The notes under the pieces were generated by a model. It saw only the letters and a list, made by a program, of their open reading frames with translations, ran no database searches and was not told the DNA's origin. From NCBI GenBank assembly GCA_900696465.1, contig CAADGE010000018.1:1-46276 (forward strand): DNA of 46,276 bases, in the 5' to 3' direction. Shown here piece by piece: positions 23,286 through 39,941 of the stretch (the first letter of the stretch is position 1; each line of letters starts with the position of its first letter). The DNA comes from an uncultured Planctomycetota bacterium. GTDB lineage: Bacteria; Planctomycetota; Phycisphaerae; UBA1845; UTPLA1. A program made the translations under genes and the position numbers.

Positions 23286-23525
23286 TCAGTGTTTCGTGTC
23301 GCGGGGTGGAAACGGGTCCTTCGACCCATAGGTGTTACTGTTTTGAATTCGCCCGTCCTTGCCCTTGATTCGGAGTTCCCCTCCGCTCTGCTTTGCTAGA
23401 TCGCGCCCCGCATCAACCGCGTCTGACTTCTTTTCGTGAACCGATGATGCTCGCTCCGCACCATCGCGCTTGACCTGCCAGCCTTCGTCATGCGGTCCAA
23501 CACTGTAGTTCTTGCTATTTGCCAT
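23286..23525 (-). CDS. DUF2188 domain protein
   Basis: A 79-residue small protein with the DUF2188 pattern: VGPHDEGWQVKRDGAERASSVHEKKSDAVDAGRDLAKQ, then GGELRIKGKDGRIQNSNTYG and the tail DPFPPRD. The domain has beta strands with a conserved W-x-V-K and AV-x-AGR helix, thought to bind nucleic acid or to be a stress-type protein; no activity is known. ATG 23525 is preferred because it is preceded by an AGGAGAAAC-like site, whereas ATG 23558 gives a sequence outside the family. Confidence 0.75.
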   Translation of the reverse strand: MANSKNYSVGPHDEGWQVKRDGAERASSVHEKKSDAVDAGRDLAKQSGGELRIKGKDGRIQNSNTYGSKDPFPPRDTKH

Positions 23526-23600
23526 TTCAGTTTCTCCTGCGTACCTGACCGGTAGCACTCCCTTGCCACCCGAGCAGAAACCAACGCCGGCTCAAGCTTG

Positions 23601-23652
23601 GTGGACTAATAATACGATAGTGCTTGTATTCTAGTCCACTTGATGATATGCT
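23601..23652 (+). promoter_or_regulatory. Promoter with overlapping dyad operator before ietA
   Basis: Perfect arms GTGGACTA (23601-23608) and TAGTCCAC (23632-23639), with an inner AATAC/GTATT pairing. The -35 TTGTAT (23624-23629) and -10 TATGCT (23647-23652), 17 bases apart, surround the right arm. CTAGTCCAC recurs at 23718-23726 inside the ietA coding region. This is the classic layout of a repressor operator; it could also serve the divergent DUF2188 gene. Confidence 0.6.
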
Positions 23653-23678
23653 GTCAATTATTGAAAAACGAGGGAACT

Positions 23679-24794
23679 ATGGATAACGCGGACAAGACTC
23701 GCGGGATTGAGAATGATCTAGTCCACCTTGCCCGGCTCGCACTAACCAGTCGCGCACAGGACGTACAGCTATTCGTCCGACGCCTATCGAAAAGGTATCG
23801 CGGGTCGATTCCTGACGTTGCCGAGGGCCTGTCGGAATTGCTCCGCGAGGCCCCCACCAGGGAGTCGCCGCTTCGCCGCGACAGCGTCGCAGCCGTTCCC
23901 GTTGACCTCGACTCCCGGCTTCACTTGGTTCGCCTTGAGCACGTCTCGGCTCTCGATGTCGAGCCGGTCTGGTTGGCGAGTGTCCGAAGCGGCCTTGAAC
24001 AACTGGTTCAGGAACGTCAACGACAGGCCGAGCTTGCCAAGGCCAGCTTGGCCCCCACGCGAACCGTAATCTTCACCGGCCCGCCGGGTGTCGGCAAGTC
24101 GCTCGCCGCTCGCTGGCTTGCGTGGCGGCTGGAGCGACCGCTACTTGTGCTGGACCTTTCGGCTGTAATGAGCAGCTTTCTTGGCCGGACCGGAACCAAC
24201 CTGCGTTACGTCCTGGATTACGCCAAGAGCGTCGATTGCATCCTCTTGCTCGATGAATTGGATGCCGTCGCCAAGCGAAGGGACGACATCCTTGAAGTCG
24301 GCGAACTCAAACGGCTCGTGACCGTCCTGCTCCAAGAGATAGACGATTGGCCCGCTACGGGCTTGCTCGTTGCTGCAACGAATCATCCAGTCCTGCTCGA
24401 CCAGGCGGTCTGGCGGCGGTTCGAGATGAAGATTGAGTTTCCGATGCCGGATTGTGAGGCAGTCGGGAAGGCGATAGAGGCGTTCAGCGGACCAGGCGGT
24501 TCGCTACCGCCCGAATGGAACGGCACGCTGACCTCACTGCTACAGGGCTTATCGTTTAGCGACATCGAGCGTGAAGTCACCGCGATGAGACGTGATGCGG
24601 TCATTCGCGGACACTCACTCGAACACTCTTTGCAGCAACTAGTTAGGCGTCGTATTGGCGAACTACCCCGTTCAGAGCGGGGAGCCATCGCTTCGACGCT
24701 CACAAAGCTGGGTCTCTCGCAACGACAGATTCACGACTTGACCGGCGTGAGTCGAGACACGATTCGGAAGGCGGCGGCACGCTCTCGTTCTTGA
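23679..24794 (+). CDS. ietA: AAA ATPase of an IetAS-type defence pair
   Basis: A 371-residue AAA ATPase. Walker A GPPGVGKS is at residues 134-141, Walker B LLLDELDAV at 189-197, sensor-1 AATN at 232-235 and the arginine-finger region RRF at 246-248. The N-terminal 120 residues are helical. The C-terminus (about 340-366, TLTKLGLSQRQIHDLTGVSRDTIRK) is a helix-turn-helix, which I see as a possible autoregulator of the dyad upstream. It is followed after 18 bases by a subtilisin-like protease gene; AAA ATPase plus S8 protease is the gene content of the IetAS antiphage system. ATP hydrolysis probably controls the protease. Length and order fit; the HTH is a notable extra. Confidence 0.75.
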   Translation: MDNADKTRGIENDLVHLARLALTSRAQDVQLFVRRLSKRYRGSIPDVAEGLSELLREAPTRESPLRRDSVAAVPVDLDSRLHLVRLEHVSALDVEPVWLASVRSGLEQLVQERQRQAELAKASLAPTRTVIFTGPPGVGKSLAARWLAWRLERPLLVLDLSAVMSSFLGRTGTNLRYVLDYAKSVDCILLLDELDAVAKRRDDILEVGELKRLVTVLLQEIDDWPATGLLVAATNHPVLLDQAVWRRFEMKIEFPMPDCEAVGKAIEAFSGPGGSLPPEWNGTLTSLLQGLSFSDIEREVTAMRRDAVIRGHSLEHSLQQLVRRRIGELPRSERGAIASTLTKLGLSQRQIHDLTGVSRDTIRKAAARSRS

Positions 24795-24812: not shown

Positions 24813-27071
24813 ATGGCGAAGACAACGAACTTTCTGCTCGGTAGCGGCGAGAACTTGACCGGCCCCGTCGAACTTCCGCGTGGCGGAAGCACTCCCAGGC
24901 CGCCCTACACATTCTTGGAGGCCAAGACGCGGCTCTCCCCGCAGGTGCAACAAGCAGCGGCCGCAATCGCGGAACTGTCGCCGGCCGCGTGCCCCCGTGA
25001 CTACGCTGTGGCGGTTATGACTTTGCACCCGGAATACATCGCCAAGAGCTATCATCCGAGCCGGCTGCTGTCAGCGGTGGGGCTTGAAGCCGTGGGAAGC
25101 CGCCCTCGAAAACTCGCTCCCGAGAAATGGCGTCCGAAGTCTGAATCGACCAGAGCGAAGAGACCGCCGCCCGAGGAGGCCGAAGGTGTAGACTTGTTCG
25201 TCGCTGGTAAGCGGACACGGTTCCAGCAGTTTGCGAACGCGCTCCCGACGTGGACCGAGCACATTGAGGGAGCAGGTCAGTTATTCGAGGTCGAGCAATT
25301 CCGTGCCGCAACACCAAGCGACCGCCTTCGCCCGCTTCAAACCGACGCCGCCGAACCGCTTTTGGAGGTTGTACTCCATGTTTTTGAGCCATTTGTCATA
25401 GAGAGTTTTGAGGCGTACCTCACCACGTTCCAACTCAAAGCGGACATCGACCGCCGATACGTAGCGGGGTCGCTGTGCTTCATGCCGCTTCGCTCGCCGC
25501 GTGAACTTATTGAAGAAGTCGCTCAATTCGCGTTCTTGCGAGTCGTTCGCGAGATGCCGCGTCTCAGGCCGCTCCGTCCGGTGTCTCGCTCCTTCCAGGG
25601 CTTGCAACCATTTGAGTGCGTGATGCCAACGGAGCCGCCGCTCGACCGCAAAGTGAAGGCGGTTGTCTTCGACGGTGGATTGCCGGTGAACGCGGGCCTT
25701 GAAAAATGGGTGACGGCCATCGAAGGGGAGAATCTGACCGAACCGTTGCCGGAGTACCTTGAGCATGGTCTGGCCGTCACCTCCGCTCTGCTGTTTGGTC
25801 CGTTGGATGCGGGTATGCCGCCATCGCGTCCCTACGCACACGTTGACCACGTTCGAGTGCTGGACGACGAGTCGGACAAGGACGAAGACCTCTACGACGT
25901 GTTGCCCCGAATCCGAACCGTGCTGGAGACAGGCAAGTACCAATATGTCAATTTCAGCATCGGCCCTTACCTGCCCATCGAGGATGACGACGTTCACGCA
26001 TGGACCGTCATGCTCGACCAATATCTTTCGACGGGCAACACACTCGCGGCGGTTGCCGTCGGCAACTCCGGCCACCTCGACCGTGCGACGGGAAACGCAC
26101 GAGTTCAGGTTCCGTCAGATTGTGTCAACGCCGTGGCTGTCGGTGCGTGCGACCGCCGCAGTGGCGGCTGGAGGAGAGCCAGCTATAGCTCTCTGGGGCC
26201 AGGACGCAGCCCCGGACTCGTAAAGCCCGACGTGCTCTCCTTTGGCGGTTGGGATGGCGAGCCGTTCTGGGTACTCGACGCTGCAAAGGCGGGACATACC
26301 GTTCCCACCTTCGGCACGAGCTTCGCCACACCATCAGTCCTTCGCATGGCGCTTGGCGTGCGTGCTCATTTCGGAGACGTAATGTCGCCGCTAGCACTTC
26401 GTGCTCTGTTGATTCACGCAGCCGAAGACGACGGGCACGAGCGTCATGAAGTTGGTTGGGGCCGTCTTGCCCACGAGCTTGAGAGCATCGTCGTCTGCCC
26501 AGAGGGCATGGCCCGGGTCGTGTACCAAGGTGTACTCGACCCGTCTGGAGCAATTCGTGCTTTCGTCCCTGTGCCGAATGAGCCGCTTGACGGGAAGGTC
26601 ACCATTCACGCAACAATGTGTTTTGCTACAACCATTGACCCTGCCCATCCAAGCAATTACACCCGCAGTGGAGTCGAGATTTTCTTCCGACCTCACATCG
26701 AGAAGCGGAATAAATCAGAAGAGGGTCTGCCGCCGCCGCTTCACGCCAAGACCAAGTCGTTCTTCCAGGTCAAGAACTACAGCCCGGAGAGCGACCTTCG
26801 CCGCGACGCTCACAAATGGGAAACCGTTTTGAATCGGGCTCAGAACTTCCAGGGCCGGTCGTTGAAAGACCCAGCCTTTGACATCTATTACCACGCTCGC
26901 GAAGGGAGTCAGGCAACTACTGCCGCGGACAAGATTCGGTATGCACTCATCGTGACCGTCCGCTCACCGCGGACACCCGACCTTTACGACGGCATTCTTC
27001 GCAGATACCGAACCCGACTAACGCCCCTGACGCCGCTCATCCAGATTCCGGTTCGGACCACAGGAACTTAG
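24813..27071 (+). CDS. ietS: Subtilisin-like S8 serine protease of an IetAS-type defence pair
   Basis: A 752-residue protein with an intact subtilase triad: D287 (VVFDGGL), H318 (LEHGLAVTSALLFG) and S503 (FGTSFATPS). The oxyanion asparagine is N418 (AVGNSGHL). There is no signal peptide, so it acts in the cytoplasm, unlike secreted subtilases. A 280-residue N-terminal region and a 220-residue C-terminal beta-rich part (GVLDPSGAIRAFVPVP) flank the catalytic domain. Linked to the AAA ATPase 18 bases upstream, it is the IetS-type effector, presumably cleaving a host or phage target when infection is sensed; target unknown. The start is ATG 24813, which lacks a strong ribosome site, so coupling to ietA is likely. 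Confidence 0.8.
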   Translation: MAKTTNFLLGSGENLTGPVELPRGGSTPRPPYTFLEAKTRLSPQVQQAAAAIAELSPAACPRDYAVAVMTLHPEYIAKSYHPSRLLSAVGLEAVGSRPRKLAPEKWRPKSESTRAKRPPPEEAEGVDLFVAGKRTRFQQFANALPTWTEHIEGAGQLFEVEQFRAATPSDRLRPLQTDAAEPLLEVVLHVFEPFVIESFEAYLTTFQLKADIDRRYVAGSLCFMPLRSPRELIEEVAQFAFLRVVREMPRLRPLRPVSRSFQGLQPFECVMPTEPPLDRKVKAVVFDGGLPVNAGLEKWVTAIEGENLTEPLPEYLEHGLAVTSALLFGPLDAGMPPSRPYAHVDHVRVLDDESDKDEDLYDVLPRIRTVLETGKYQYVNFSIGPYLPIEDDDVHAWTVMLDQYLSTGNTLAAVAVGNSGHLDRATGNARVQVPSDCVNAVAVGACDRRSGGWRRASYSSLGPGRSPGLVKPDVLSFGGWDGEPFWVLDAAKAGHTVPTFGTSFATPSVLRMALGVRAHFGDVMSPLALRALLIHAAEDDGHERHEVGWGRLAHELESIVVCPEGMARVVYQGVLDPSGAIRAFVPVPNEPLDGKVTIHATMCFATTIDPAHPSNYTRSGVEIFFRPHIEKRNKSEEGLPPPLHAKTKSFFQVKNYSPESDLRRDAHKWETVLNRAQNFQGRSLKDPAFDIYYHAREGSQATTAADKIRYALIVTVRSPRTPDLYDGILRRYRTRLTPLTPLIQIPVRTTGT

Positions 27072-27366: not shown

Positions 27367-28344
27367 ATGAAGGAAGATCGCGCCCTCGCAACTCGCAAGT
27401 ACCTTGCCCGCATCGGGCTTGAGGCGCTGCCGGCCATTGTCGCCCAGGCCGGAGAGCGGGCCGGCCGCAGGTTCATCGAGTTCTTCACCGCCAACATCCG
27501 GAACCGCAACACGCGAATCGCGTATGCCCGAGCAATCGCCAATTTCTTCGACTATTGCGACGAACGCGGCCTGCGGCTATCAACCATCGAACCGGTCGCC
27601 GTCGCGGCCTATATCGAGAATCTCGCGGCCGTGCGATCGGCCCCGACCGTCAAACAGAATTTGGCGGCGATTCGGATGCTCTTCGACTGGCTCGTCGTCG
27701 GCCAGGTCGTGCCCTTCAACCCGGCAAGCGCCGTCCGCGGGCCGAGGCACGTTGTAAAGCGCGGCAAGACGCCGGTCCTCACTGCCGACCAGGCCCGCAA
27801 GCTCCTCGACTCCATCGACACCGAGACCGTCGTCGGCCTCCGCGACCGGGCGCTCATCGGCGTGATGGTCTATTCGTTCGCCCGCGTCGGCGCCGTCGTC
27901 GCCATGCGGGTCGAAGACTACTTCCAGAGCGGCAAGCGCTGGCAGGTGCGGCTCCACGAGAAAGGCGGCAAGCGGCACGAGGTGCCGTGCCACCACAACG
28001 CCGAGGCGTACCTCGACGCGTATATCGAGGCCGCCGGCATCGGCCGCGACAAGAAAAGCCCCCTCTTCCGCAGCGTGGACCGGCAGCGGCGGCTCACTGA
28101 CCGGCCGGTTCACCGGATCGACGTTTTGCGTATGATCAAGCGCCGGGCGCGGGCCGCTGGGTTGCCTGAAAGCACGTGTTGTCATACGTTCAGGGCCACC
28201 GGAATCACGGCGTACCTCGAAAACGGCGGCACGATTGAAAACGCCCAGGCCATCGCCGCCCACGAATCGCCGCGGACGACAAAGCTCTACGACCACACCA
28301 GCGACGAGATCACGCTGGACGAGGTGGAGCGGATAGCGATTTGA
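27367..28344 (+). CDS. Tyrosine recombinase / integrase
   Basis: A 325-residue tyrosine recombinase with an N-terminal SAM-like core-binding domain (about 30-115) and a catalytic domain (about 135-320). Catalytic residues are visible: R173 (YSFARVGAVV), K199 or K202 (EKGGKRHEV), H273 and R276 (CHTFRATG), H299 (IAAHESPRTT) and Y308 (TKLYDH). AAAGGAG supports ATG 27367. The stop overlaps the TTG candidate start of the helicase gene and lies 5 bases before ATG 28350, so integrase and defence operon share a message. Integrases are usually at element ends; this one faces into the defence genes, suggesting it moves them as a cassette. Confidence 0.85.
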   Translation: MKEDRALATRKYLARIGLEALPAIVAQAGERAGRRFIEFFTANIRNRNTRIAYARAIANFFDYCDERGLRLSTIEPVAVAAYIENLAAVRSAPTVKQNLAAIRMLFDWLVVGQVVPFNPASAVRGPRHVVKRGKTPVLTADQARKLLDSIDTETVVGLRDRALIGVMVYSFARVGAVVAMRVEDYFQSGKRWQVRLHEKGGKRHEVPCHHNAEAYLDAYIEAAGIGRDKKSPLFRSVDRQRRLTDRPVHRIDVLRMIKRRARAAGLPESTCCHTFRATGITAYLENGGTIENAQAIAAHESPRTTKLYDHTSDEITLDEVERIAI

Positions 28345-28349
28345 AGGTC

Positions 28350-31300
28350 ATGACTATCGACGCACTCAAACCAGGTTCAACCGTGCGTGGCGCTCTTTTC
28401 CCTGAGCCCGTTCAGGTAATTGTCTGCACTCCGCTCGGAAGCTCGTTCAAGCTGGTCGGGAAGGGTCTCGATTCGGGGCGTGTCTATGAGCCGGTCCTAG
28501 ACGCCGGCCAACTCGCCGCCCTTCAAATTAGTCCAGAACAGCCGCCGTTCGACGGCGACCCTGTGCAGTTCCGGCTCGGCGTGGAGGCCCTCCGCCTGAC
28601 CTTGGCCTACGAGTACGACCCTTATTTCTCGCTTTCAATCGCCCGCGTTGATCCCCTGCCCCACCAACTTGAAGCCGTTTACGACTACTTCATCAAGCTC
28701 CCGCGCATTCGGTTCCTTCTAGCTGACGACCCCGGCGCCGGCAAAACGATCATGGCCGGGTTGTTACTTAAGGAGCTTAAGGTCCGAGGATTGGCAAGCC
28801 GAACGCTCATTGTCACACCGGCAAATCTGACGTTTCAATGGCAGCGCGAACTCAAAGACAAGTTCCGCGAGACTTTTGAGATCGTCCGCGGTGACGTGCT
28901 ACGAGCAAACTACGGGACGAATCCGTGGCAGGACAAGAAGCAGGTTATCACTTCCGTGTCATGGGTGTCGCGAGTCGACGATGCTCGTGAAAGCCTCCTT
29001 CGCAGCCATTGGGACCTGATCATTGTTGATGAAGCCCACAAGATGTCGGCATACAGCGCCGACAAGAAGACACTTGCCTATCAACTCGGCGAACATTTGT
29101 CGGCCATGACCGATCATTACCTTTTGATGACGGCAACGCCGCACAAGGGCGATCCGGAGAACTTTTGCCTGTTTCTACGACTCCTCGACGATGACGTGTA
29201 CGGAGACGTAAAGAGCCTTGAAGAGGCGATGCAGCGAAACTCGGCGCCGTTTTATCTGCGACGAATCAAAGAGGCATTGGTCACATTCCCCGACCCCGAC
29301 ACCGGCCAGATAAAAAAGCTATTCACGAAGCGAAACGTCCAGACGGTGAAGTTCCAGATCGACAGCGATGAGTGGGACCTATACGACGCGCTCACCCGCT
29401 ACGTGGAGGACCAGTCCATCAAGGCCCAAGCCGCAAACGCCACGACCGGCCGCGCTGTCGGTTTTACGATGGCTATGCTACAGCGCCGACTGGCATCCAG
29501 CGTTTACGCCGCACGTCGAAGCCTTGAGCGGATGCGTGAAAAACGCGAAAAGATTCTCAAGGACCCGCAAGCCTATCGTCAGGAACAAATCGCAAAGAAA
29601 CTCCCAGAGGACTTCGACGACCTTCCTGAAGACGAGCAGCAGGAAATCCTTGGTGAGCTGGAAGACGTGGTCGCCTCCGTTGACCCCGCAGCACTCCGTG
29701 AAGAAATCCTACAACTCACCAAGCTGATCGAACAGGCACGAGTGCTGGAACAGCGAGAAGTCGAGACCAAGCTCAATCGGCTTCGCGAGGTCCTTTCCGA
29801 ACAGGGAGCGTTCAAAGACCCGACAATGAAGCTCCTCCTCTTCTCGGAGCATAAGGACACGCTCGACTATCTTGTGGGTAAGCTCACCGAATGGGGCCTT
29901 TCCGTCACACAGATCCACGGTGGGATGAAGATCGGCGACCGAGACACGCCGGGCAGTCGCATCTACGCGGAGCGGGAGTTCCGGGAATCCGCCCAAGTCC
30001 TTGTCGCCACTGAGGCGGCCGGCGAAGGCATCAACCTCCAATTCTGTTGGTTCATGATCAACTACGACATCCCCTGGAATCCCGTTCGGCTCGAACAGCG
30101 CATGGGCCGCATTCATCGCTACGGTCAGGAGAAGGATTGCCTCATTTTCAATTTCGTCGCGACGAATACCCGTGAAGGCCGGGTGCTTCAGAAACTTTTT
30201 GAACGCCTGGAACAGATCGAGCACGACCTCGACCCGCAGCGCACCGGTAAAGTCTTCAATGTGCTCGGTGACGTGTTCCCCGCGAATCAACTGGAAAAGA
30301 TGATCCGGGAGATGTACCTCCACAATCAAACCGAGGAAAGCATCAAGGCCCGGATCGTCCAGGAAGTCGATACGCAGCGCTTTCGGGAGATCACCGATTC
30401 CACGCTGGAAGGCCTCGCCAAGCGCGAGCTAAATCTCTCAGCCATCGTTGGCAAATCTGCCGAGGCCCGCGAGCGGCGGCTTGTGCCCGAAGTCATCGAA
30501 GATTTCTTCGTCCAGGCAAGCCCCGTGGTCGGACTGTTGCCGAAAGAAACCGCGACCGGCTCTCACCTCTATCGCATCGGTCGCGTTCCGCGCCACCTTT
30601 GGGCGATGGGAGACAAGCTCGAACCCCGCTTCGGTAAGTTCGGCCACGAGTACAAGCAAATCGTTTTCGACAAGGCGCTACTCACCAAGGACCCCACCTG
30701 CGAATGGGTCACTCCCGGTCATCCACTCTTTGAAACTGTTCGCCAAACGCTTTGGGAGCAGGTCCGCGAGGGGCTGGCTCGCGGCTCGGTCTTTTACGAC
30801 CTGCACAGCAGTACGGCCTATCACCTCGACGTGTTCTCCGCATCGGTAAAGGACGGGCTGGGCAACGAACTGCACCGGCGCCTGTTCGTCGTACAGGCTG
30901 GCCATGATGGCCAACTTTTGGTCCGGCAGCCAACCATTTTTCTTGATCTTGCCCTCGCCCCCATTGGCACTGCCCCTCCGACGGTCGAGACCTTTCCAGC
31001 CCGCGAACGCCGGGAGCAGGCGCTGACCGAGCAATGCCTGACCGCGTTTCTGGCTGAGATTGCGGCGCAGCGGAAAAAGGAAACCGACACCATCCGCCGT
31101 CACATCGAAATCAGTCTCAATGAATTGATCCACCGCCAGCAGTTGACCTTTGCGGGTCTCCACGAACAAGCTGCAAAGCTCACGACCACACCGCCGTGGC
31201 TCGCCGCAAGCATGAAGCAGTCCGAGGACCGGCTGGAAGAACTTAATGCCCGACGGGAGCAGCGCCTAGCCAATCTCGACCGCGAATGCCAATGCACGAT

Positions 31301-31787
31301 CGGCGACATCCAGCACGTCGGCTCCGCGTGGGTCCTCCCCCACCCCGAGCGGACATCGCCCGGCGTGGCCCCGATGGTTCGGGACGATGAAATCGAACGA
31401 ATCGCCGTCCAGGCCGTGATCGCCCACGAGGAAGCCCAGGGCCGCAAGGCGGAAAGCGTTGAGGCCCAGAATCGCGGCTTCGACCTGATCTCCCGTCGCC
31501 CGCACCCGGAGGACCCGCAGACAGCCGTCGAGGTGCGATTCATCGAAGTCAAAGGCCGTGCCGGCGTCGGCGAAGTGGCGCTGACGACCAACGAGTACAA
31601 GACGGCCGAGCGGCTCAAGAACGACTACTGGCTCTACGTTGTCTACAACTGCGGCTCCAAGCCCGAGGTACACGTCATCCGCAATCCGGCCCGGCTGGGG
31701 TGGAAACCGATCGTGACTGTCGAGCACTACTCAGTCGACGCACGATCGATCATTGCGGCCGAAGAGAAGCCGGGACAAGGAACTTAG
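28350..31787 (+). CDS. SNF2-family helicase with DUF3883-like C-terminal domain
   Basis: A 1145-residue DNA translocase of the SNF2 type. Motif I DDPGAGKT is at about residues 126-133, DEAH (VDEAHK) at about 227-230, motif III TATPHKG at about 261-267 and the RecA2 motif QRMGRIHRYGQ near 580. The C-terminus, about 1035-1130 (GFDLISRR, VRFIEVKGRAGVGEVALT), is DUF3883-like with a nuclease-type beta core. Start: ATG 28350 (MTIDALKPG) fits the family; TTG 28341 inside the integrase end is possible. It is the helicase of a helicase-methylase-ATPase (Hma-like) set. It also resembles DISARM DrmD, but drmA/B/C are absent here. Confidence 0.85.
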   Translation: MTIDALKPGSTVRGALFPEPVQVIVCTPLGSSFKLVGKGLDSGRVYEPVLDAGQLAALQISPEQPPFDGDPVQFRLGVEALRLTLAYEYDPYFSLSIARVDPLPHQLEAVYDYFIKLPRIRFLLADDPGAGKTIMAGLLLKELKVRGLASRTLIVTPANLTFQWQRELKDKFRETFEIVRGDVLRANYGTNPWQDKKQVITSVSWVSRVDDARESLLRSHWDLIIVDEAHKMSAYSADKKTLAYQLGEHLSAMTDHYLLMTATPHKGDPENFCLFLRLLDDDVYGDVKSLEEAMQRNSAPFYLRRIKEALVTFPDPDTGQIKKLFTKRNVQTVKFQIDSDEWDLYDALTRYVEDQSIKAQAANATTGRAVGFTMAMLQRRLASSVYAARRSLERMREKREKILKDPQAYRQEQIAKKLPEDFDDLPEDEQQEILGELEDVVASVDPAALREEILQLTKLIEQARVLEQREVETKLNRLREVLSEQGAFKDPTMKLLLFSEHKDTLDYLVGKLTEWGLSVTQIHGGMKIGDRDTPGSRIYAEREFRESAQVLVATEAAGEGINLQFCWFMINYDIPWNPVRLEQRMGRIHRYGQEKDCLIFNFVATNTREGRVLQKLFERLEQIEHDLDPQRTGKVFNVLGDVFPANQLEKMIREMYLHNQTEESIKARIVQEVDTQRFREITDSTLEGLAKRELNLSAIVGKSAEARERRLVPEVIEDFFVQASPVVGLLPKETATGSHLYRIGRVPRHLWAMGDKLEPRFGKFGHEYKQIVFDKALLTKDPTCEWVTPGHPLFETVRQTLWEQVREGLARGSVFYDLHSSTAYHLDVFSASVKDGLGNELHRRLFVVQAGHDGQLLVRQPTIFLDLALAPIGTAPPTVETFPARERREQALTEQCLTAFLAEIAAQRKKETDTIRRHIEISLNELIHRQQLTFAGLHEQAAKLTTTPPWLAASMKQSEDRLEELNARREQRLANLDRECQCTIGDIQHVGSAWVLPHPERTSPGVAPMVRDDEIERIAVQAVIAHEEAQGRKAESVEAQNRGFDLISRRPHPEDPQTAVEVRFIEVKGRAGVGEVALTTNEYKTAERLKNDYWLYVVYNCGSKPEVHVIRNPARLGWKPIVTVEHYSVDARSIIAAEEKPGQGT

Positions 31788-31789
31788 TC

Positions 31790-32836
31790 ATGGCAAAGAC
31801 CCGCATTTCTCAGCTAAAGGCGCTTGCCGACATAATCTCCGACTATCGAGCGGGAAGTATTCCGCCGCGAGACTCCAACTTGATCAACGATTGGCTAGGC
31901 CAGTTCCCGGCTGTCGAGCAAGAACCGTTGCTTGACGCACTCGTCCATGTACTCCAAAAGACATACATTTCAAAAACTGACTTCAAAACCTTCCTCGAAG
32001 CGCTGGCATCTACTGACAAATTATCTCCTGGGTCTGATCCAAAGACGTACTGGAAGTCGGTCAATCTGCTTAACATCCAAAAAGGGGGCAGAAGCCAGCG
32101 CGAGATTCTTTCCACATTCGACGAGGTGCTTAAGACCACGCACGGATTCGGAACGCAGGAGACTGGAAGCGTCGGGGGACACTATGTGTATCTCGACGAT
32201 TGTGTCGGCACTGGAAGCCGTGTACGGGCAGATGTGTGTACTTGGCTCGAATCCGATGCTCCGAAGTCCATTGAGCTGCATATTATCACGCCCGTCTTGT
32301 ATGTGGGGTCGTATTGGATCGACCAGAAGATTCAGGAAACAGCGACAGCTCACGGAAAGACGATAACCCTTCATAAATGGCGACTCGACCAATTCCAAAT
32401 GGAGAATCGCCTAGCACGACGGAACACGTCGGACGTGCTTTGGCCCACCGAGTTGCCCACCGATCCTGCGGTGCAAGCCTACGCCGTACAGCTTCAGAAT
32501 TCAGGTCATCCTGCCATCCTTCGTGATCCAGGAAACGTGGGCGCGTCAGGGATTTTCCAAGACGACGCACAAAAGATGCTGCTTGAACAGGCGTTTCTTC
32601 GTCGCGGCTGTCAGATTCGACAGGAATGCAGCAACCTCCCCGACAAGGCTCGTCCGCTTGGATACCACAACCTCGATTGCCTTGGCTTCGGCTCTATGTT
32701 CGTAACGTACCGCAATTGTCCGAACAACTGTCCCTTGGCTCTTTGGGTGCAACAGGCTGAGTATCCAGCTCTCTTCCCTCGCAAGACTAACACGCAAACG
32801 GCCATCCAGAACCTTGTCGCGGAGCTTAATCAGTGA
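31790..32836 (+). CDS. PRTase-CE phosphoribosyltransferase-like protein
   Basis: A 348-residue protein with a phosphoribosyltransferase core at about residues 100-250. The PRPP loop is YLDDCVGTGSRVRADV, near residue 133, with the DD and GTG pattern of this fold, followed by a helix-strand region (SIELHIITPVLYVGSYW). The N-terminal 95 residues are helical. The C-terminal 100 residues have cysteines (CQIRQECSNLPDK, CLGFGSMFVTYRNCPNNC) that may bind metal. The family matches PRTase-CE, found in conflict and defence loci. It starts 2 bases after the helicase stop and its TGA overlaps the GTG of the methyltransferase. A ribosyl-transfer step in the system is inferred; substrate unknown. Confidence 0.65.
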   Translation: MAKTRISQLKALADIISDYRAGSIPPRDSNLINDWLGQFPAVEQEPLLDALVHVLQKTYISKTDFKTFLEALASTDKLSPGSDPKTYWKSVNLLNIQKGGRSQREILSTFDEVLKTTHGFGTQETGSVGGHYVYLDDCVGTGSRVRADVCTWLESDAPKSIELHIITPVLYVGSYWIDQKIQETATAHGKTITLHKWRLDQFQMENRLARRNTSDVLWPTELPTDPAVQAYAVQLQNSGHPAILRDPGNVGASGIFQDDAQKMLLEQAFLRRGCQIRQECSNLPDKARPLGYHNLDCLGFGSMFVTYRNCPNNCPLALWVQQAEYPALFPRKTNTQTAIQNLVAELNQ

Positions 32837-35800
32837 TTGCAGACAAGGGACAAATCCGCATCTACCGCCAAGCGGAATGCATTACGTTCCGAAGCACAAA
32901 GGAACGATTCGGCGGCCTGTCGAACATGGCTGGCGGGTATCCGCTGCGCGTCAACGGAATCGAGGTACTCAGTTCCGAAGCACTCTATCAGGCGTGTCGC
33001 TTCCCAGATCTGCCCGATATCCAACGGCTGATCATCGAGCAGAAAAGCCCGATGACCGCCAAGATGGTCGGCAAGCCTCATCGGGACAAGACGCGCCCCG
33101 ACTGGATGCAGATTCGTGTCCGCGTGATGCGCTGGGTTCTGCGGGTGAAGCTGGCTATGCACTGGCCGGAGTTCGGCGGTCTGCTCCTGGAGACCGGCGA
33201 CACACCCATCGTCGAAGACTCGCGGCGCGACGACTACTGGGGGGCACTAAGGCAGGAGGACGGCACGCTTGTCGGCATGAATGTGCTCGGTCGGCTCCTG
33301 ATGGAACTACGCGAGGAACTTCGCGGCCCCGGCAAGGACGCACTCCGAATCGTCGATCCGCCGCCATTGCCAGACTTCCTTCTCTACGGTGAGCCGATCC
33401 GGCGAGTGGGCTTCGCCAAGGCCGATGCCCAAATTGCGGACCCAGATGCATCGGTGCGGCCGGACACACTTTGGGCCTCCCCACCGCCCGCAATAGCTGA
33501 TTCCGAATTAGTAAACGACGATCCCGTGCCGGTAGCGCACGGCAAGGCCAGCGATGACAAGCCAATGACGTATCCCAAGCGCCTCATTGAAGTTGACCTG
33601 CCTATCAAGCGGATATCCGCACATGCGCGTCGCGAGAAAAGCATTCGCCACGGGCATATCGCGACGCTGCACATTTGGTGGGCACGGCGGCCGTTGGCGT
33701 CGTGTCGGGCGGTGATCTGTGCGGCATTGTGGCCGGACCCGGCGGATGAGCATTGCCCTCAGCGGTTTCGCGAGGGCACCTCCCGGATCATGGCCGAGCT
33801 GCGCCAGCGGGTGCTGAACGGCAAGATTTCGAACGATCAGCGGGCGGCGCGGGAACCGGTCGAACGCATCCACGTGCCAGAAAATACGGACGACTATCTC
33901 GGCCTGCGCCGGGCGCTGCTCGACTTCATCGCCGAATTCGCGAACTGGGGCCTCTCGACGAACCGGTTCTTCCTGAACGCGAGCCGGGCGCTCACGCAGT
34001 CGGCCCACGAGGCCCTCGGCGGCGCGCCGGGCACACGGCCGCTGGTCGTGGACCCATTTGCCGGCGGCGGCGCAATCCCATTGGAAGCCCTGCGAGTTGG
34101 CGCGAGTGCCTTTGCCAGTGACCTGAACCCTGTGGCTGTACTAATCAATAAGGTAGTCTTGGAGTACATCCCCAAGTACGGCCAGCGCCTGGCCGACGAA
34201 GTTCGCAAGTGGGGCCAGTGGGTCAAGAACCAGGCCGAGAAGGAACTGTCCGCCTTCTATCCTAAGGACCAAGACGGCGCGATCCCCATCGCGTATGTCT
34301 GGGCACGTACAGTGCGATGCGAGGGTCCCGGTTGTGGTGCCGAGGTCCCTCTTATCCGCTCTCTATGGTTGGCCAAGAAGGGCAAGAAGAGCATCGCCAT
34401 GAGGATGCTACCACGCCCGAGGGCAAAGCGTGTGGACTTTGAGATCATCGAGGCGGCCAGAGCCTCCGATGTCGGGGTCGGCACTGTCGCGCGAGGTTCC
34501 GCGACCTGCCCCTGCTGCGGTTTCACAACACCGGTAGGTTCTGTGCGCAAACAATTGACTGCTAGAATGGGTGGAGCAGCCGACTCAAGAATGCTTGCGG
34601 TAGTCCTTGCACACGAGAGCAAACAGGGACGATTCTACAGATGCGCTCTTAAGACCGATATCGACGCTGCGGCGCGAGCCGCCTCTCACCTTGAACGCAC
34701 TAACTTGCGACCTGCCGGGCACAGCCCTGTGCCTGATGAGCCATTGCCGATCATGAGCGGTGTGTTCAACGCGCCGATCTACGGGCATTCCACATGGGGG
34801 AGCCTCTTCACGCCACGGCAAGCGCTTAGCTTGGTAACGCTTTGCTCGCTTGTACGCAAAGCGGGCACCGAGATTCGGCGGGGCCACGACGCTGGGTTGG
34901 CGGTCGCAGTGGAGACCTGCCTTGCGTTGGCCATCGACAAGCAAGCAGACAGCAACTCGTCGCTCTGCGCGTGGCGAGCCACAAGTCAAGACATCGGGCA
35001 TACCTTCGGCCGTCAAGCGCTTCCCATGATGTGGGATTTCGTGGAGGCCAACGTGCTCAGCGGTTCGACGCGCGACTGGAGCAATGCCATCGAGGGAGGG
35101 CTGAAAGCGCTGGAGAGTCTTGACCCAGATATCGGCGAAGGGCACGCCGAGGCGGCGTCGGCGACAAAGCATCCACTGCCAGATGACTCAGCCAACTGCT
35201 TTGTGACTGATCCACCGTACTACAACGCAGTCCCCTACGCTGACCTGTCCGACTTCTTCTATGTGTGGCTAAAACGCACAATACCGGACCTGTACCCCGA
35301 GCTTTTCGCAGAGCCACTGTCACCGAAAAAGGATGAATGCTGTGAAATGGCGGGCTGGGACCCGGAGAGGTATCCAGAGAAGAACGGCCATTGGTTTGAA
35401 CAGCAGATTGGCAAGGCGATGGCGGAAAGCCGACGAGTCTTGGCTCCCAACGGCATCGGCACCGTGGTTTTTGCCCATAAGTCTACTGGTGGTTGGGAGG
35501 CTGTCCTACAGGCAATGATCGACGCTGGCTGGACGGTCACAGCATCGTGGCCGATTGATACGGAGATGGGGTCTCGTCTGCGTGCAATCAACTCGGCGGT
35601 GCTGGCTTCATCCATCCATCTTGTCTGCCGCCCTCGCGAGAACCCCGACGGCTCGGTTCGGACTGCGGAGATTGGCGACTGGCGCGAGGTGCTGGCCGAG
35701 CTACCGAATCGTATCCACGAGTGGATGCCACGGCTGGCAAATGAGGGAGTTGTCGGCGCGGATGCCATTTTCGCCTGCCTTGGCCCCGCCTTGGAGATTT

Positions 35801-36573
35801 TCTCCCGTTACTCCCGCGTCGAGAAGGCCAGCGGCGAGCAAGTTAGCCTCCGTGATTACCTGGAGCAAGTCTGGGCCGCCGTCTCGCAGGAGGCGCTGAG
35901 GTTGGTATTTGAGAAAGCGGACGCCAGCGGCTTTGAGGAAGACGCCCGACTCACTGCCATGTGGCTCTGGACGCTCAGCACAGGTAATTCAGAAGGCAAA
36001 ATGCAGAAGGCGGAAGTGGAAGACGAGGAACACGCGGGTGAAGAGGAGCCGGAGGACGGCCGCAGGAAGAAGAAAGCCAACGGCGGCTTCGCGTTGGAAT
36101 ACGATGCCGCGCGCAAGATCGCCCAGGGATTGGGCGCGCACTTGGAGAACCTCGGCACGGTCGTCGAAATCGACGGCGACACCGCCCGGCTGTTGCCAGT
36201 CTCCGAGCGGACCAAGGCCCTGTTCGGCAAGGACCAGGCCGATGCACCCACCGGTAAACGCAAGAAAAAAGACAAGCAGATGAAACTTGCCTTCGCCGAG
36301 GAGTTGGAGCAGGCCGAATCCGAAGGCGGCTGGGGCGAAAAGGGCGCGCCGAAGGTCGGCACGACCACGCTCGACCGCGTTCACCAGTCCATGATCCTCT
36401 TCGCCGCCGGCCGAAGCGAGGCGATGAAGCGGTTCCTCGTCGAAGAAGGCGTCGGCCGCGACGGCCGCTTCTGGACGCTGGCCGATTGTCTATCGAAGCT
36501 GTACCCGCCGAAGACCGACGAGAAGCGCTGGGTAGATGGCCTGTTGGCCCGCAAGAAGGGGCTTGGGTTCTAG
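32833..36573 (+). CDS. NADAR domain fused to DUF1156 adenine-specific DNA methyltransferase
   Basis: A 1246-residue fusion starting with GTG in a GTGA overlap with the PRTase gene. Residues 15-165 are a canonical NADAR domain: TKERFGGLSNM, SSEALYQACRFPD, RPDWMQIRVRVM, LLLETGDTPIVEDSRRDDYWGA and GMNVLGRLLMELREEL. From about 246 on is a DUF1156 methyltransferase (RLIEVDLPIKRISAHARREKS, HIWWARRPLASCRA). It has SAM motif VVDPFAGGGAIPLEAL near 405, two CxxC-type pairs (about 495 and 558) and DPPYYNAVPYADL near 790. DPPY indicates amino-methylation of DNA, the self-marking enzyme. A charged linker at about 1050-1090 contains the mobile-repeat sequence. NADAR enzymes act on ADP-ribose-type adducts; why one is fused here is unknown. 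Confidence 0.85.
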   Translation: MIADKGQIRIYRQAECITFRSTKERFGGLSNMAGGYPLRVNGIEVLSSEALYQACRFPDLPDIQRLIIEQKSPMTAKMVGKPHRDKTRPDWMQIRVRVMRWVLRVKLAMHWPEFGGLLLETGDTPIVEDSRRDDYWGALRQEDGTLVGMNVLGRLLMELREELRGPGKDALRIVDPPPLPDFLLYGEPIRRVGFAKADAQIADPDASVRPDTLWASPPPAIADSELVNDDPVPVAHGKASDDKPMTYPKRLIEVDLPIKRISAHARREKSIRHGHIATLHIWWARRPLASCRAVICAALWPDPADEHCPQRFREGTSRIMAELRQRVLNGKISNDQRAAREPVERIHVPENTDDYLGLRRALLDFIAEFANWGLSTNRFFLNASRALTQSAHEALGGAPGTRPLVVDPFAGGGAIPLEALRVGASAFASDLNPVAVLINKVVLEYIPKYGQRLADEVRKWGQWVKNQAEKELSAFYPKDQDGAIPIAYVWARTVRCEGPGCGAEVPLIRSLWLAKKGKKSIAMRMLPRPRAKRVDFEIIEAARASDVGVGTVARGSATCPCCGFTTPVGSVRKQLTARMGGAADSRMLAVVLAHESKQGRFYRCALKTDIDAAARAASHLERTNLRPAGHSPVPDEPLPIMSGVFNAPIYGHSTWGSLFTPRQALSLVTLCSLVRKAGTEIRRGHDAGLAVAVETCLALAIDKQADSNSSLCAWRATSQDIGHTFGRQALPMMWDFVEANVLSGSTRDWSNAIEGGLKALESLDPDIGEGHAEAASATKHPLPDDSANCFVTDPPYYNAVPYADLSDFFYVWLKRTIPDLYPELFAEPLSPKKDECCEMAGWDPERYPEKNGHWFEQQIGKAMAESRRVLAPNGIGTVVFAHKSTGGWEAVLQAMIDAGWTVTASWPIDTEMGSRLRAINSAVLASSIHLVCRPRENPDGSVRTAEIGDWREVLAELPNRIHEWMPRLANEGVVGADAIFACLGPALEIFSRYSRVEKASGEQVSLRDYLEQVWAAVSQEALRLVFEKADASGFEEDARLTAMWLWTLSTGNSEGKMQKAEVEDEEHAGEEEPEDGRRKKKANGGFALEYDAARKIAQGLGAHLENLGTVVEIDGDTARLLPVSERTKALFGKDQADAPTGKRKKKDKQMKLAFAEELEQAESEGGWGEKGAPKVGTTTLDRVHQSMILFAAGRSEAMKRFLVEEGVGRDGRFWTLADCLSKLYPPKTDEKRWVDGLLARKKGLGF
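35986..36014 (+). repeat. Copy 1 of a dispersed CAGAAGGC repeat, inside the methyltransferase gene
   Basis: The 29 bases match the inverse of 36979-37007 at 26 of 29 positions (AATTCAGAAGGCA and CAGAAGGCGGA at the ends, three differences in the middle). In frame it encodes NSEGKMQKAE at the start of a charged linker between methyltransferase domains, so it was tolerated as a linker insertion. Confidence 0.7.
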
Positions 36574-36582
36574 GGTGGAAGG

Positions 36583-36975
36583 ATGAAGGCGGAAGGCAGA
36601 AGTGAAGACAGGCGAAAGCCGCCACGCGACCTCAGGGAGCGGACGACGGAGTTCGCCTTGCGCATCGTGCGGATGTTTGCCGCGCTGCCGAAGACTACGG
36701 AGGCCCAAGTGTTGGGTAAACAGGTATTGCGGAGCGGGACGAGCGTCGGGGCGCACTACCGCGAGGCGTCGCGTGCACGTTCGAAGAAGGAATTTGCCAG
36801 CAGGCTCGAAGGAGGGCTGGCGGAGCTGGAAGAAGCAACATATTGGCTCGAACTGCTAGCGAGAGCGGGAATCGTAGATGCGGCAAGGGTGCAACCGCTC
36901 CGCGATGAAGCCGACGAACTACTGCGAATCTTCGTGACAAGCAGCCGCACGGCCAAGGGGGAGAGGTACTCATGA
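36583..36975 (+). CDS. Four-helix-bundle protein (23S rRNA IVP family)
   Basis: A 130-residue helical protein with the hallmark pattern: DLRERTTEFALRIVRMFAALPK, then VLGKQVLRSGTSVGAHYREASRARS, EFASRLEGGLAELEEATYWLELL and a fourth helix. Such proteins were first found within intervening sequences of 23S rRNA genes and now occur in many mobile contexts; activity unknown. Here it sits between methyltransferase and DUF499 genes, 9 bases after the methyltransferase stop, and is flanked by inverted repeat copies. I see it as an inserted cassette, not an original operon member. The N-terminal 16 residues are encoded by the repeat and may be extra. Confidence 0.8.
   Translation: MKAEGRSEDRRKPPRDLRERTTEFALRIVRMFAALPKTTEAQVLGKQVLRSGTSVGAHYREASRARSKKEFASRLEGGLAELEEATYWLELLARAGIVDAARVQPLRDEADELLRIFVTSSRTAKGERYS
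36585..36603 (+). repeat. Copy 2 of the CAGAAGGC repeat, at the four-helix-bundle start
   Basis: GAAGGCGGAAGGCAGAAGT at 36585-36603; its last 12 bases (36592-36603) are the exact inverse of ACTTCTGCCTTC at 36990-37001. It overlaps the first codons of the small gene. Confidence 0.6.
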
Positions 36976-36978
36976 ACA

Positions 36979-37007
36979 TCCGCCTTCTGACTTCTGCCTT
37001 CTGAATT
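36979..37007 (-). repeat. Copy 3 of the CAGAAGGC repeat, before the DUF499 gene
   Basis: On the minus strand it reads AATTCAGAAGGCA, GAAGT, CAGAAGGCGGA. It ends ten bases before the DUF499 ATG. Together with 35986-36014 it encloses about 1 kb holding the methyltransferase C-terminus and the four-helix-bundle gene. Confidence 0.7.
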
Positions 37008-37016
37008 GGAGCGATC

Positions 37017-39941
37017 ATGGCATTGAAACCTTGGTACAACGCAATTTTCCCCCGCGAGGACCTGCGCGAAGGCAAGCCACTGGACGCTTCCGAGTTCGCC
37101 GTGCACCTCGACCAGGTGCGCGATGGCCGGGCGAACGCGGATTATCAGGATCCCGCGCGGTTTTTCAGCAAGACCTATCTGACCAAGAATCTGCTCGCCG
37201 TTGCCGCGGAAGCTGTTCGCCGGTTGTCGGGAATTAAGACCGAGACCTCAGCCGTATTCAACATGACCACGCAGTTCGGTGGCGGCAAGACGCACGCTCT
37301 TACGTTGCTATACCACCTCGCCCGCGCGGGCAAGGACGCCAAGGGCTGGACGGGTGTGAGTTCGATTCTGGAACGCGCGGGTGTTGCGGAACTCGCGAAG
37401 GCGGAAATCGGCGTATTCGTTGGTACCGAATTCGATTCCATCACCGGTCGGGGCGGGCAGGACGGCACGCCGCTTCGCAAGACGCCGTGGGGTGAACTTG
37501 CATGGCAAATCGGCGGCAAGGAGGGATTCCAGGCCGTCGCCGAGCACGAGAAGAAGCTCATCGCGCCTTCCGGCGAAGTCATTCGATCTTTTCTTCCCAA
37601 GGGAAAGCCATGCCTGATCTTGATGGACGAGCTGATGAACTACGTCAGCCGAAACCGCAAGAGCGGTCTGGCGACGCAGCTCTACAATTTTCTCCAGAAT
37701 CTCTCGGAGGAAGTACGCGGGCAGGATAGAGTTGTGCTAGTCGTATCCATCCCGGCGAGTGAGTTGGAAATGAACGCTGAGGACCAGGCCGATTACGACC
37801 GCTTCAAGAAGGTGCTCGACCGGCTTGGTAAGGCCGTCATCATGTCGGCGGAGACCGAAACGGCAGAGATCATTCGGCGACGACTATTCGAGTGGGATGG
37901 GATTACGAAGGACGCGGATAAGACAATCACGGCATTCGCGGAATGGGCCGTTGACCACCGGACGCAGATACCCGGCTGGTTTCCGGTAGACAATGCGCGA
38001 GAAGCGTTTCGGGCCTCCTACCCCTTTCATCCAGCTCTGCTTTCCGTCTTTGAGCGAAAGTGGCAGCAATTGCCCCGCTTCCAGCAGACCCGCGGCATTC
38101 TGCGACTGCTCGCCCTTTGGGTTTCAAAGGCGTATAATGACGGATTTAAGGGCGCCCACAAAGACCCGTTGATAGGACTGGGCACGGCGCCGCTGGAAGA
38201 CCCGTTCTTTCGCACGGCTGTCTTTGAACAACTCGGTGAATCCAAGCTAGAGGGCGCCGTCACGACTGATATATGTGGCAAACGCGATTCGCACGCAGAC
38301 AGGCTCGACCGTGAGGCCGTCGAGGACATCAAGAAGGCCCGGTTGCATCGCAAGGTCACGACTGCTGTTTTCTTTGAATCAAACGGCGGGCAGATGCGGG
38401 CTGAGGCCACCGTTCCTGAAATTCAGTTGGCCGTTGGAGAGCCGGATCTCGACATCGGGCATATTCAGACAGTCATGGAGACACTTATCCAATCGTGCTA
38501 CTACCTCTCAGCCGAGCGCAACCGTTACCGATTCAGCACGACGGAAAACCTGATCAAGCGATTCTCCGATCGCCGTGCGAGCATATCGGACAAGGCCATT
38601 GAGGAGCGGGCGCGTGCCGAGATTCAGAAAGTATTCGCACCGCATGAAGGAATCGAGCGCATTTTCTTCCCCGACAAGAGCAATGCCATTCCCGATCGCC
38701 CGGCGTTGGTTTTGGCGGTGCTTGCTCCTGAGCATTCAATCGACGAGGAGTCCGCCACTAAGGCCCTCGCGAAAAGCATGACATGGGAGTGTGGCAAGTC
38801 GGGCCGAACGTTCAAGAGCGCGATTATTTGGTGCGTTCCAGAGTCCGCTCAGATTCTGCGTGATGAGGCTCGCAAGGCCCTGGCATGGGAGGCCATCGAG
38901 TCTGAGAAGGACGAGTTACATATAGAGGAGAGCCAGAAGCGTCAACTCGGCGAGTACGTCGGCCGGTCTAAACGCGATCTAAAAGAGGCCGTCTGGCGAA
39001 GCTACAAGTTCCTCCTGCTGCTCGGCAAGGACAACGAGCTAAGAAAGACTGACCTTGGGCTCTTGAACTCCAGCCAAGGCGGCTCGCTCATCGAGGTAAT
39101 CCTCAAGCGGCTTCGCGATGATGGAGATATCGAGAAAACTCCGAGTCCCAATTATCTGGTTCGCAAATGGCCGGGTTTCAAGGAATGGAGTACGAAGGCG
39201 GTACGCGATGCGTTTTTCGCGTCGCCCGAGTTCCCCAGACTTCTAAACGCAGATGCCGTGAAGGAGACCATCGCCAGAGGCGTCAGCGAACGCATCCTCG
39301 CATACGTGGGAAAACGCCCCGACGGAAGTTACGAACCGTTCGTCTTCGAACGAGAACTGACGCCAACTGAGGTAGAGATTTCAGACGATGTTTTCATTCT
39401 CACCGCAGATGAGGCAAAGAAACACGTCGAGCCGCCGAAGCTGACCGCACTTTTTATCACGCCCCAAGACGCGCAAGTTAAACCTGAGGCCCATCTCACC
39501 TTTCAAGCCCGAGGGGCCGACCAGCACGGCAGGCCCATTGCTCTGTCAAACGTCACTTGGACTGCCAAGGGTGGAGCGATTGATGACACGGGGGGCTTTA
39601 CCGCGGGCAAGCAAGAAGGAAGCTTTCTCATTGAAGCGGCCGCCGGAGGCCTTTCTGCCCAGGCAACCGTTGCAATCACCAAGGACGTGTTGCAACCGCC
39701 TCCTCAGCCACCACCGAAGCGGGAGGCGAAGTCGCTTCGCTGGTCAGGTCAAGTACCACCGCAAAAATGGATGAACTTTTACACGAAGGTGCTCGCGAGG
39801 TTTGCCAACACGTCCGATTTGAAACTTAACGTCAGCTTCGAAGTGACCCCCGACGGCGGCCTGTCGCCGTCTCGAATTGAGGAAACCAAGGCTACGCTCC
39901 GCGAACTGGGACTAGATGATGACGTACAATCGGACGCCTGA
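37017..39941 (+). CDS. DUF499 ATPase with Ig-like domain, Hma-type operon
   Basis: A 974-residue P-loop ATPase beginning MALKPWYNAIFPREDLREG. Walker A is GGGKTHAL near residue 86 (in TTQFGGGKTHALTLLYHL). Walker B is LILMDELMNYV near 201-209. Residues 300-780 contain winged-helix and helical parts. At about 808-890 is a Big-type Ig-like fold (LTALFITPQDAQVKPEAHLTF, WTAKGGAIDDTGGF), odd in a cytoplasmic protein. The end (LRWSGQVPPQKWMNFYTKVLARF) is a DUF499-type tail. Proteins of this family go with DUF1156 methyltransferases and helicases in defence loci; likely the ATP-driven sensor or motor. The start is ATG 37017 with a GGAG site 5-8 bases before. Confidence 0.85.
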   Translation: MALKPWYNAIFPREDLREGKPLDASEFAVHLDQVRDGRANADYQDPARFFSKTYLTKNLLAVAAEAVRRLSGIKTETSAVFNMTTQFGGGKTHALTLLYHLARAGKDAKGWTGVSSILERAGVAELAKAEIGVFVGTEFDSITGRGGQDGTPLRKTPWGELAWQIGGKEGFQAVAEHEKKLIAPSGEVIRSFLPKGKPCLILMDELMNYVSRNRKSGLATQLYNFLQNLSEEVRGQDRVVLVVSIPASELEMNAEDQADYDRFKKVLDRLGKAVIMSAETETAEIIRRRLFEWDGITKDADKTITAFAEWAVDHRTQIPGWFPVDNAREAFRASYPFHPALLSVFERKWQQLPRFQQTRGILRLLALWVSKAYNDGFKGAHKDPLIGLGTAPLEDPFFRTAVFEQLGESKLEGAVTTDICGKRDSHADRLDREAVEDIKKARLHRKVTTAVFFESNGGQMRAEATVPEIQLAVGEPDLDIGHIQTVMETLIQSCYYLSAERNRYRFSTTENLIKRFSDRRASISDKAIEERARAEIQKVFAPHEGIERIFFPDKSNAIPDRPALVLAVLAPEHSIDEESATKALAKSMTWECGKSGRTFKSAIIWCVPESAQILRDEARKALAWEAIESEKDELHIEESQKRQLGEYVGRSKRDLKEAVWRSYKFLLLLGKDNELRKTDLGLLNSSQGGSLIEVILKRLRDDGDIEKTPSPNYLVRKWPGFKEWSTKAVRDAFFASPEFPRLLNADAVKETIARGVSERILAYVGKRPDGSYEPFVFERELTPTEVEISDDVFILTADEAKKHVEPPKLTALFITPQDAQVKPEAHLTFQARGADQHGRPIALSNVTWTAKGGAIDDTGGFTAGKQEGSFLIEAAAGGLSAQATVAITKDVLQPPPQPPPKREAKSLRWSGQVPPQKWMNFYTKVLARFANTSDLKLNVSFEVTPDGGLSPSRIEETKATLRELGLDDDVQSDA

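Follow-up and report, generated by a model that had tools for sequence, protein, structure and literature searches.

The ietA gene of the 46,276-nt stretch of planctomycete DNA analysed here (hereafter, the window) very probably encodes an autorepressor, an AAA+ ATPase that would act through two operator-like dyads, A and B. Dyad A lies across the predicted promoter of ietA and dyad B within the first codons of the gene, and both were compared, together with the C-terminus of the protein, across a collection of ietA loci from genomes, plasmids and viral contigs.

The ietAS locus and the C-terminus of IetA

PADLOC assigns the window ATPase to IetA (E 3.8e-78), in keeping with the first-pass annotation of this DNA, which had called it IetA-like, and assigns the gene that follows to IetS (Table 1). 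An IetS match was likewise present in 165 of the 173 IetA loci that we collected, namely the best 80 from named genomes, the best 80 from viral contigs, 12 from plasmids and the window itself. Among the structural matches listed for the AAA+ core of IetA, the best were proteasomal, Vps4 and FtsH-type ATPases. Judging by its gene content, the window IetAS is predicted to have anti-phage or toxin-antitoxin activity. Downstream of ietAS the window, which comes from a genome of 4,143,326 bases (4.14 Mb), also holds the Hma defence genes HmaA, HmaB and HmaC (28341-39941), a tyrosine integrase gene between these and ietAS (27367-28344), and, on the minus strand, an Rfam match to a group II catalytic intron (RF00029, 44.1 bits, 42978-43080). 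In four plasmid loci (L148, L149, L141 and L144), ietAS adjoins caspase-family genes or multiubiquitin and ThiF-type genes.

For the last 82 residues of IetA, structure prediction gives a mean pLDDT of 91.4 and three helices (residues 331-343, 348-355 and 359-370) arranged as a helix-turn-helix (HTH), and so the earlier reading that the ATPase ends in an HTH holds, though with sub-threshold Pfam matches. None of the Pfam HTH families (HTH_23, Xre-like, Trp repressor, HTH_3) scored above its curated cut-off for the window IetA, the best being HTH_23 with 16.9 bits against a cut-off of 24.6. A Foldseek search with the HTH returned no match at E <= 0.001; the rows listed include Trp repressor, sigma region 4 and IstA, and the highest probabilities belonged to 2x48 (0.99) and the IstA transposase (0.82), none of them significant by E-value.

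To obtain a non-redundant set, we left out 36 of the 173 loci that shared upstream DNA, had less than 120 nt upstream or were absent from the alignment, which left 137. The first-pass annotation had suggested checking whether other IetA proteins carry the HTH, and the answer is divided. Scored with a profile that was built from the same IetA collection, the HTH is present (score >= 30) in 124 of the 137 non-redundant IetAs, the window included, but it is missing from all 29 more distant relatives taken from the window's phylum, a few of which end in a different segment, and from the founding IetA of pTiC58, which at 328 aa stops short of it. The C-terminal HTH is therefore a proposed trait of an IetA subfamily, neither universal among IetAs nor defining for them.

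Table 1. Features of the ietAS locus and its upstream region, in window coordinates
Feature	Position	Strand	Basis or remark
DUF2188 (PDC-S16) gene, divergent from ietA, with a putative common intergenic operator	23286..23558	-	Pfam/PADLOC
Operator-like dyad A, GTGGACTA-N23-TAGTCCAC	23601..23639		same kind of dyad in 58/137 ietA upstream regions
Predicted ietA -35, TTGTAT	23624..23629	+	TTG 8 nt before the right arm in 19/56 operators
Predicted sigma-70 promoter facing DUF2188, TTGACA-18-TAGAAT	23628..23657	-	11/12 consensus matches
Predicted ietA -10, TATGCT	23647..23652	+	TANNNT 9 nt after the arm in 17/56 operators
ietA, AAA+ ATPase, 371 aa	23679..24794	+	coding start best placed at ATG 23679; listed ORF opens at TTG 23640
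Operator-like dyad B, CGGACAA-N23-TAGTCCA, first codons of ietA	23689..23725		12/14 matches; left arm degenerate
Intragenic half-site TAGTCCAC, right arm of dyad B	23719..23726	+	sequence match; encodes L-V-H
C-terminal HTH, residues 331-370; recognition helix 359-370	24669..24788	+	predicted structure
Candidate specificity residues S358 and D360	24750-24752 and 24756-24758	+	covariation scan
ietS, S8 subtilase, partner of IetA	24813..27071	+	PADLOC IetS E 8.5e-38; Pfam S8

Two dyads at the start of ietA

Dyad A consists of two perfect arms, GTGGACTA at 23601-23608 and TAGTCCAC at 23632-23639, separated by 23 nt. The first-pass annotation had placed a perfect dyad over the -35/-10 region of ietA, and this placement stands, with the right arm falling within the 17-nt spacer of the predicted ietA promoter. 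The two elements of this promoter were picked by eye and are below the strength needed by a consensus scan, which picks a stronger promoter on the minus strand (23657 to 23628), facing DUF2188, the -10 of which overlaps dyad A. Both ietA elements (TTG at -8 and TANNNT at +9 from the right arm) occur together in 11 of the 56 operators classified below, and the counts for each element are modest (Table 1). When the window is aligned with its two closest relatives, the arms, the TTG.AT and GCTGTC motifs and the half-sites of dyad B are kept, and the surrounding DNA has changed. The inverted repeat thus overlaps the predicted promoter of its own gene, as it does in type II toxin-antitoxin autoregulation, and repression is the predicted outcome when a right arm so placed, between the -35 and -10 of a sigma-70 promoter, is occupied.

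The arm sequence itself is enriched locally: TAGTCCAC has 3 copies in the window against 0.29 expected, a number reached in 2 of 100 shuffles, and the whole dyad, with any gap from N20 to N26, has a single copy in the entire window genome. The longer TCTAGTCCAC occurs at 23630, at 23717 within the gene and at one further place in the genome; this 10-mer alone is not unusual, because a control pattern that reads it backwards has 4 genome copies.

Across the 137 non-redundant loci we searched for dyads of the form TGGAnnA...TnnTCCA, allowing spans of 34-42 and settling ties in favour of the span nearest 37, and found one upstream of ietA in 58, compared with a mean of 0.14 and a maximum of 2 in 100 dinucleotide shuffles of the same upstream regions. 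All of these dyads span 36-39 bp, and 51 of the 58 span 37 or 38. A motif-free count of perfect 8-bp inverted pairs, made on 140 upstream regions that had passed a slightly different filter, gave 32 pairs at gaps of 21-25 against about 3 in shuffles; in the same count a gap of 29 also stands out (7 against 0.45). The carriers of the dyad include records of Planctomycetes, Acidobacteria, Proteobacteria, Actinobacteria, Gemmatimonadetes, Bacteroidetes and Paenibacillus.

The dyad was found at 56 of the 124 IetAs that bear the HTH and at none of the 13 with a weak or missing HTH score. It was also absent upstream of all 29 of the more distant relatives and of pTiC58 ietA, these 29 being both HTH-less and more distant, so that the two facts are confounded. 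Under the strict rule, 68 of the 124 HTH-bearing IetAs had no dyad; two of these (L260 and L203) had odd matches, with unusual arms that overlap the start codon, and were dropped from the 56 operators used for class counts. IetAs of the SQH type account for part of the remainder, with a dyad at only 1 of 22, and start codons may be misplaced in part of the other dyad-less members. Six loci with SQH-type or related IetAs (L150, L248, L249, L251, L252 and L267) have another dyad some 100 bp upstream, TATAGTATT with a gap of 27 nt. A DUF2188 match was present at 6 of the 173 IetA loci, in 5 of them upstream of ietA; in this collection the dyad goes with IetAs predicted to bear the HTH, and not with DUF2188.

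The first-pass annotation had also pointed to a recurrence of the half-site inside the gene, near 23718, which is indeed there as the third copy of TAGTCCAC. What it overlooked is that this copy forms the right arm of a second dyad, B, and the presence of this dyad near the start of ietA is a new finding. In the window, dyad B has the 37-bp span typical of dyad A, and its centre lies 87 bp from that of dyad A. Scoring all centre offsets from 50 to 159 at a threshold of at least 12 of 14 matches, we found a second dyad in 31 of the 56 operators, all 31 at 74-77 or 85-87 bp, compared with 2 of 56 in an equally wide control window. Eleven of the 31 touch the called start codon (8 of them with a left arm that opens at the T of the ATG), 14 begin in the first codons and 6 lie upstream of the called start codon. 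About one helical turn separates the two distance classes, suggesting a single protein assembly that holds both sites on the same face of the DNA, with both putatively bound by IetA.

The downstream half-site also matches the right arm of the upstream operator in type: the two agree in 19 of 30 cases, compared with a permutation mean of 8.5, and none of 10,000 permutations scored as high. Among the 20 members with a matching L-V/I-H/Q motif, 13 encode the half-site as TTA or CTA followed by GTCCA; in the window ietA, TTA and CTA make up 10 of the 56 leucine codons.

Co-change of the recognition helix and the operator arms

The arms of the 56 operators are mostly of three types, TGGACTA, TGGACGA and TGGAAGA, and these types follow two residues of the HTH. 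The TGGACTA arm was found with 27 of the 36 proteins that have Ser358 and with none of the 20 that have Ala358, the remaining 9 Ser358 proteins lacking it. TGGAA in both arms was found with all 7 proteins that have Glu360, each of these with TGGAAGA, and with 5 of the 49 that have Asp360. In 20,000 permutations of the labels, which ignore relatedness, neither the Ser358 nor the Glu360 value was reached.

These two residues also emerged from a permutation-corrected scan of 290 variable IetA columns that was blind to the position of the HTH. By permutation z-score, S358 and D360 took ranks 1 and 2 for arm base 5, for arm base 6 and for the four-letter arm class. When mutual information was divided by joint entropy, D360 and S358 came out on top for base 5 and S358 for base 6, and neither was on top for the four-letter class. 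By raw mutual information they ranked low (S358 35th and D360 73rd for base 5, 5th and 162nd for base 6), because the raw measure favours columns of high entropy. A tree computed with the HTH columns left out offers 4 supported independent pairs; on average 3.4 and 3.0 of them agree and none is opposed, a number of pairs too small to reach p < 0.05.

The arm bases thus change with the recognition helix of the HTH, indicating IetA itself as the binder. The first-pass annotation had proposed that the ATPase binds its own promoter and releases it on phage sensing, and this interpretation is partly supported: from the dyad tracking HTH-bearing IetAs and its bases tracking the recognition helix we infer, with strong support, that IetA binds its own promoter. 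Binding of the dyad by another protein, which the same annotation had named as the outcome that would speak against it, is made unlikely by this co-change and by the scarcity of DUF2188.

Proposed autorepression, alternative readings and known systems

In the mechanism that we propose, the C-terminal HTHs of an IetA oligomer would bind two dyads of 37-39 bp, A and B: the right arm of A would fill the space between the -35 and -10 of the ietAS promoter, and B would cover the ietA start codon or the codons just after it. Since A and B are 7 or 8 helical turns apart, a single oligomer, or two that cooperate, could span both on the same side of the helix, in a proposed geometry and stoichiometry. 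Binding would shut off ietAS and, in the window, probably the divergent DUF2188 promoter as well. How repression would be relieved is a guess, a change in the level or state of IetA, for instance through engagement of IetS or sensing of a phage, being our candidate.

That IetA binds and yet activates the genes, or merely marks a plasmid or island, without repressing, is unlikely. The position of a site is by itself silent on the sign of regulation, and dyad B could act otherwise than dyad A, but a protein bound to a right arm within the -35/-10 spacer is expected to block RNA polymerase.

The same dyads also occur away from ietA. In IMG/VR loci L037-L139, viral contigs with no ietA, GTGGACTA-N23-TAGTCCAC is over-represented (examples are L059 7341-7379, L076 3641-3679 and L070 9015-9053). 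Scans with four arms returned 103, at least 120, at least 120 and 99 loci, and sites were counted among the matches listed. Counted in this way, GTGGACTA arms gave 56 distinct N23 sites against 1-4 at spacings of 19-21 and 25-27, and GTGGACGA arms 37 against 2-10, compared with 8 against 3-12 for a made-up control arm, which had a mild peak of 14 at N24. In the 80 loci listed for each scan the N23 sites numbered 41 for GTGGACTA, 28 for GTGGACGA and 8 for the control arm. An N23 excess of GTGGAAGA (30, among the matches listed) was discounted, as it stems partly from homologous genes common to up to 14 loci. Promoter elements were missing at the viral GTGGACTA sites and at the other scanned sites in the 80 listed loci per scan, and IetA was found in 1 of the 46 records with N23 GTGGACTA sites.

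An integrase-like ORF lay within 2 kb of 11 of 59 GTGGACTA sites (N22-24), compared with 2 of 72 controls, a link weakened by the origin of four of the seed integrases in those same loci and by the location of several sites inside the ORF; the N23 sites of GTGGACGA had no such link (1 of 28). On these grounds, proximity to integrases establishes neither an attachment site nor a decoy role. L070 and L076, which encode related integrases, have about 70 bp around the dyad in common and otherwise unrelated flanks. A BLAST search with one shared element gave two weak phage matches and no plasmid match, and a tighter pattern search gave one contig. A further reading would explain the promoter-less N23 excess in viral contigs without ietA: a phage or plasmid that enters with IetA dyads would draw IetA away from its promoter, and perhaps off IetS, the copy number of the sites thereby being sensed, or else phages would use the sites as decoys. 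We regard this reading as improbable.

The matching viral dyads could also be taken to favour an unrelated host regulator that recognises a common operator upstream of ietAS, which we consider quite improbable. The dyad adjoins ietA in several phyla, and the ietA copy is the sole one in the window genome and in both of the two genomes, among six other IetA genomes searched, that have the exact GTGGACTA type. Moreover, a host factor is not expected to shift its specificity with residues 358 and 360 of IetA. A broad host regulon was rejected on the single genomic copy of the N20-26 dyad and on a search of 392 genomes of the phylum, in which the N23 form had only that copy; in 337 genomes of another class no dyad (N19-27) was found.

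Regulation by the divergent DUF2188 protein, with the dyad as its binding site, is very improbable. A DUF2188 gene does stand upstream of ietA in the window and in L232 (on the same contig as L035), L152, L180 and L188, and in the window its predicted promoter overlaps dyad A, but its match at just 6 of the 173 loci, against a dyad at 58 of 137, led us to reject it as the binder, and the arm bases track the HTH of IetA and not DUF2188. Lastly, the dyads are inverted repeats and might be RNA structures (an attenuator or terminator) or chance, a reading that is hardly credible given that dyad A lies across the predicted promoter, ahead of the point where the transcript is predicted to begin and hence outside the ietA RNA, that Rfam has no match at its position, and that shuffles all but lack such dyads.

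Self-silencing of defence and toxin-antitoxin systems is a live question, and the autorepression proposed here would give IetAS a testable regulator, a testable operator and two testable specificity residues. With an operator inside the coding sequence, part of the IetA N-terminus may be shaped by DNA binding, and if binding depends on the state of the oligomer or of the partner, transcription would become a readout of the defence complex's state.

IetAS of plasmid pTiC58 was reportedly first described, in 2009, as a toxin-antitoxin pair, and a defence role of IetAS is said to date from 2020. The window locus has the same order of an AAA ATPase followed by an S8 subtilase as pTiC58 IetAS and the IetAS of defence catalogues, and pTiC58 IetA matches the IetA profile built here; it differs from the window protein in ending without the HTH and in having no such dyad. 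SgiAT of Salmonella genomic island 1, an IetAS homologue, is likewise a toxin-antitoxin pair (PMC5006074), with a predicted promoter of its own (PMC5006074) and, as a difference, a LexA-like box and promoter activity (PMC9927553), and a mycoplasma homologue pair has toxin-antitoxin activity (PMC8562856). Searched for such terms, PMC5006074 and PMC8562856 gave no mention of a helix-turn-helix or palindrome, and these two and PMC9927553 gave none of autoregulation of an IetAS-type pair. In the open-access papers searched, we came across no account of an HTH in IetA or of an operator for it.

Autorepressing type II antitoxins bind dyads in their own promoters. The ietA locus resembles them in its dyads at its own promoter, with the difference that the putative antitoxin is here an AAA+ ATPase with a terminal HTH and that one operator falls within the coding sequence or at its start. 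DnaA and NtrC-like proteins combine an AAA+ module with a C-terminal HTH, couple DNA binding to their oligomer state and are autoregulated. IetA has the same combination of an AAA+ module and a predicted C-terminal HTH, but its core is closest, among the matches listed, to proteasomal, Vps4 and FtsH-type ATPases, and its partner is a protease.
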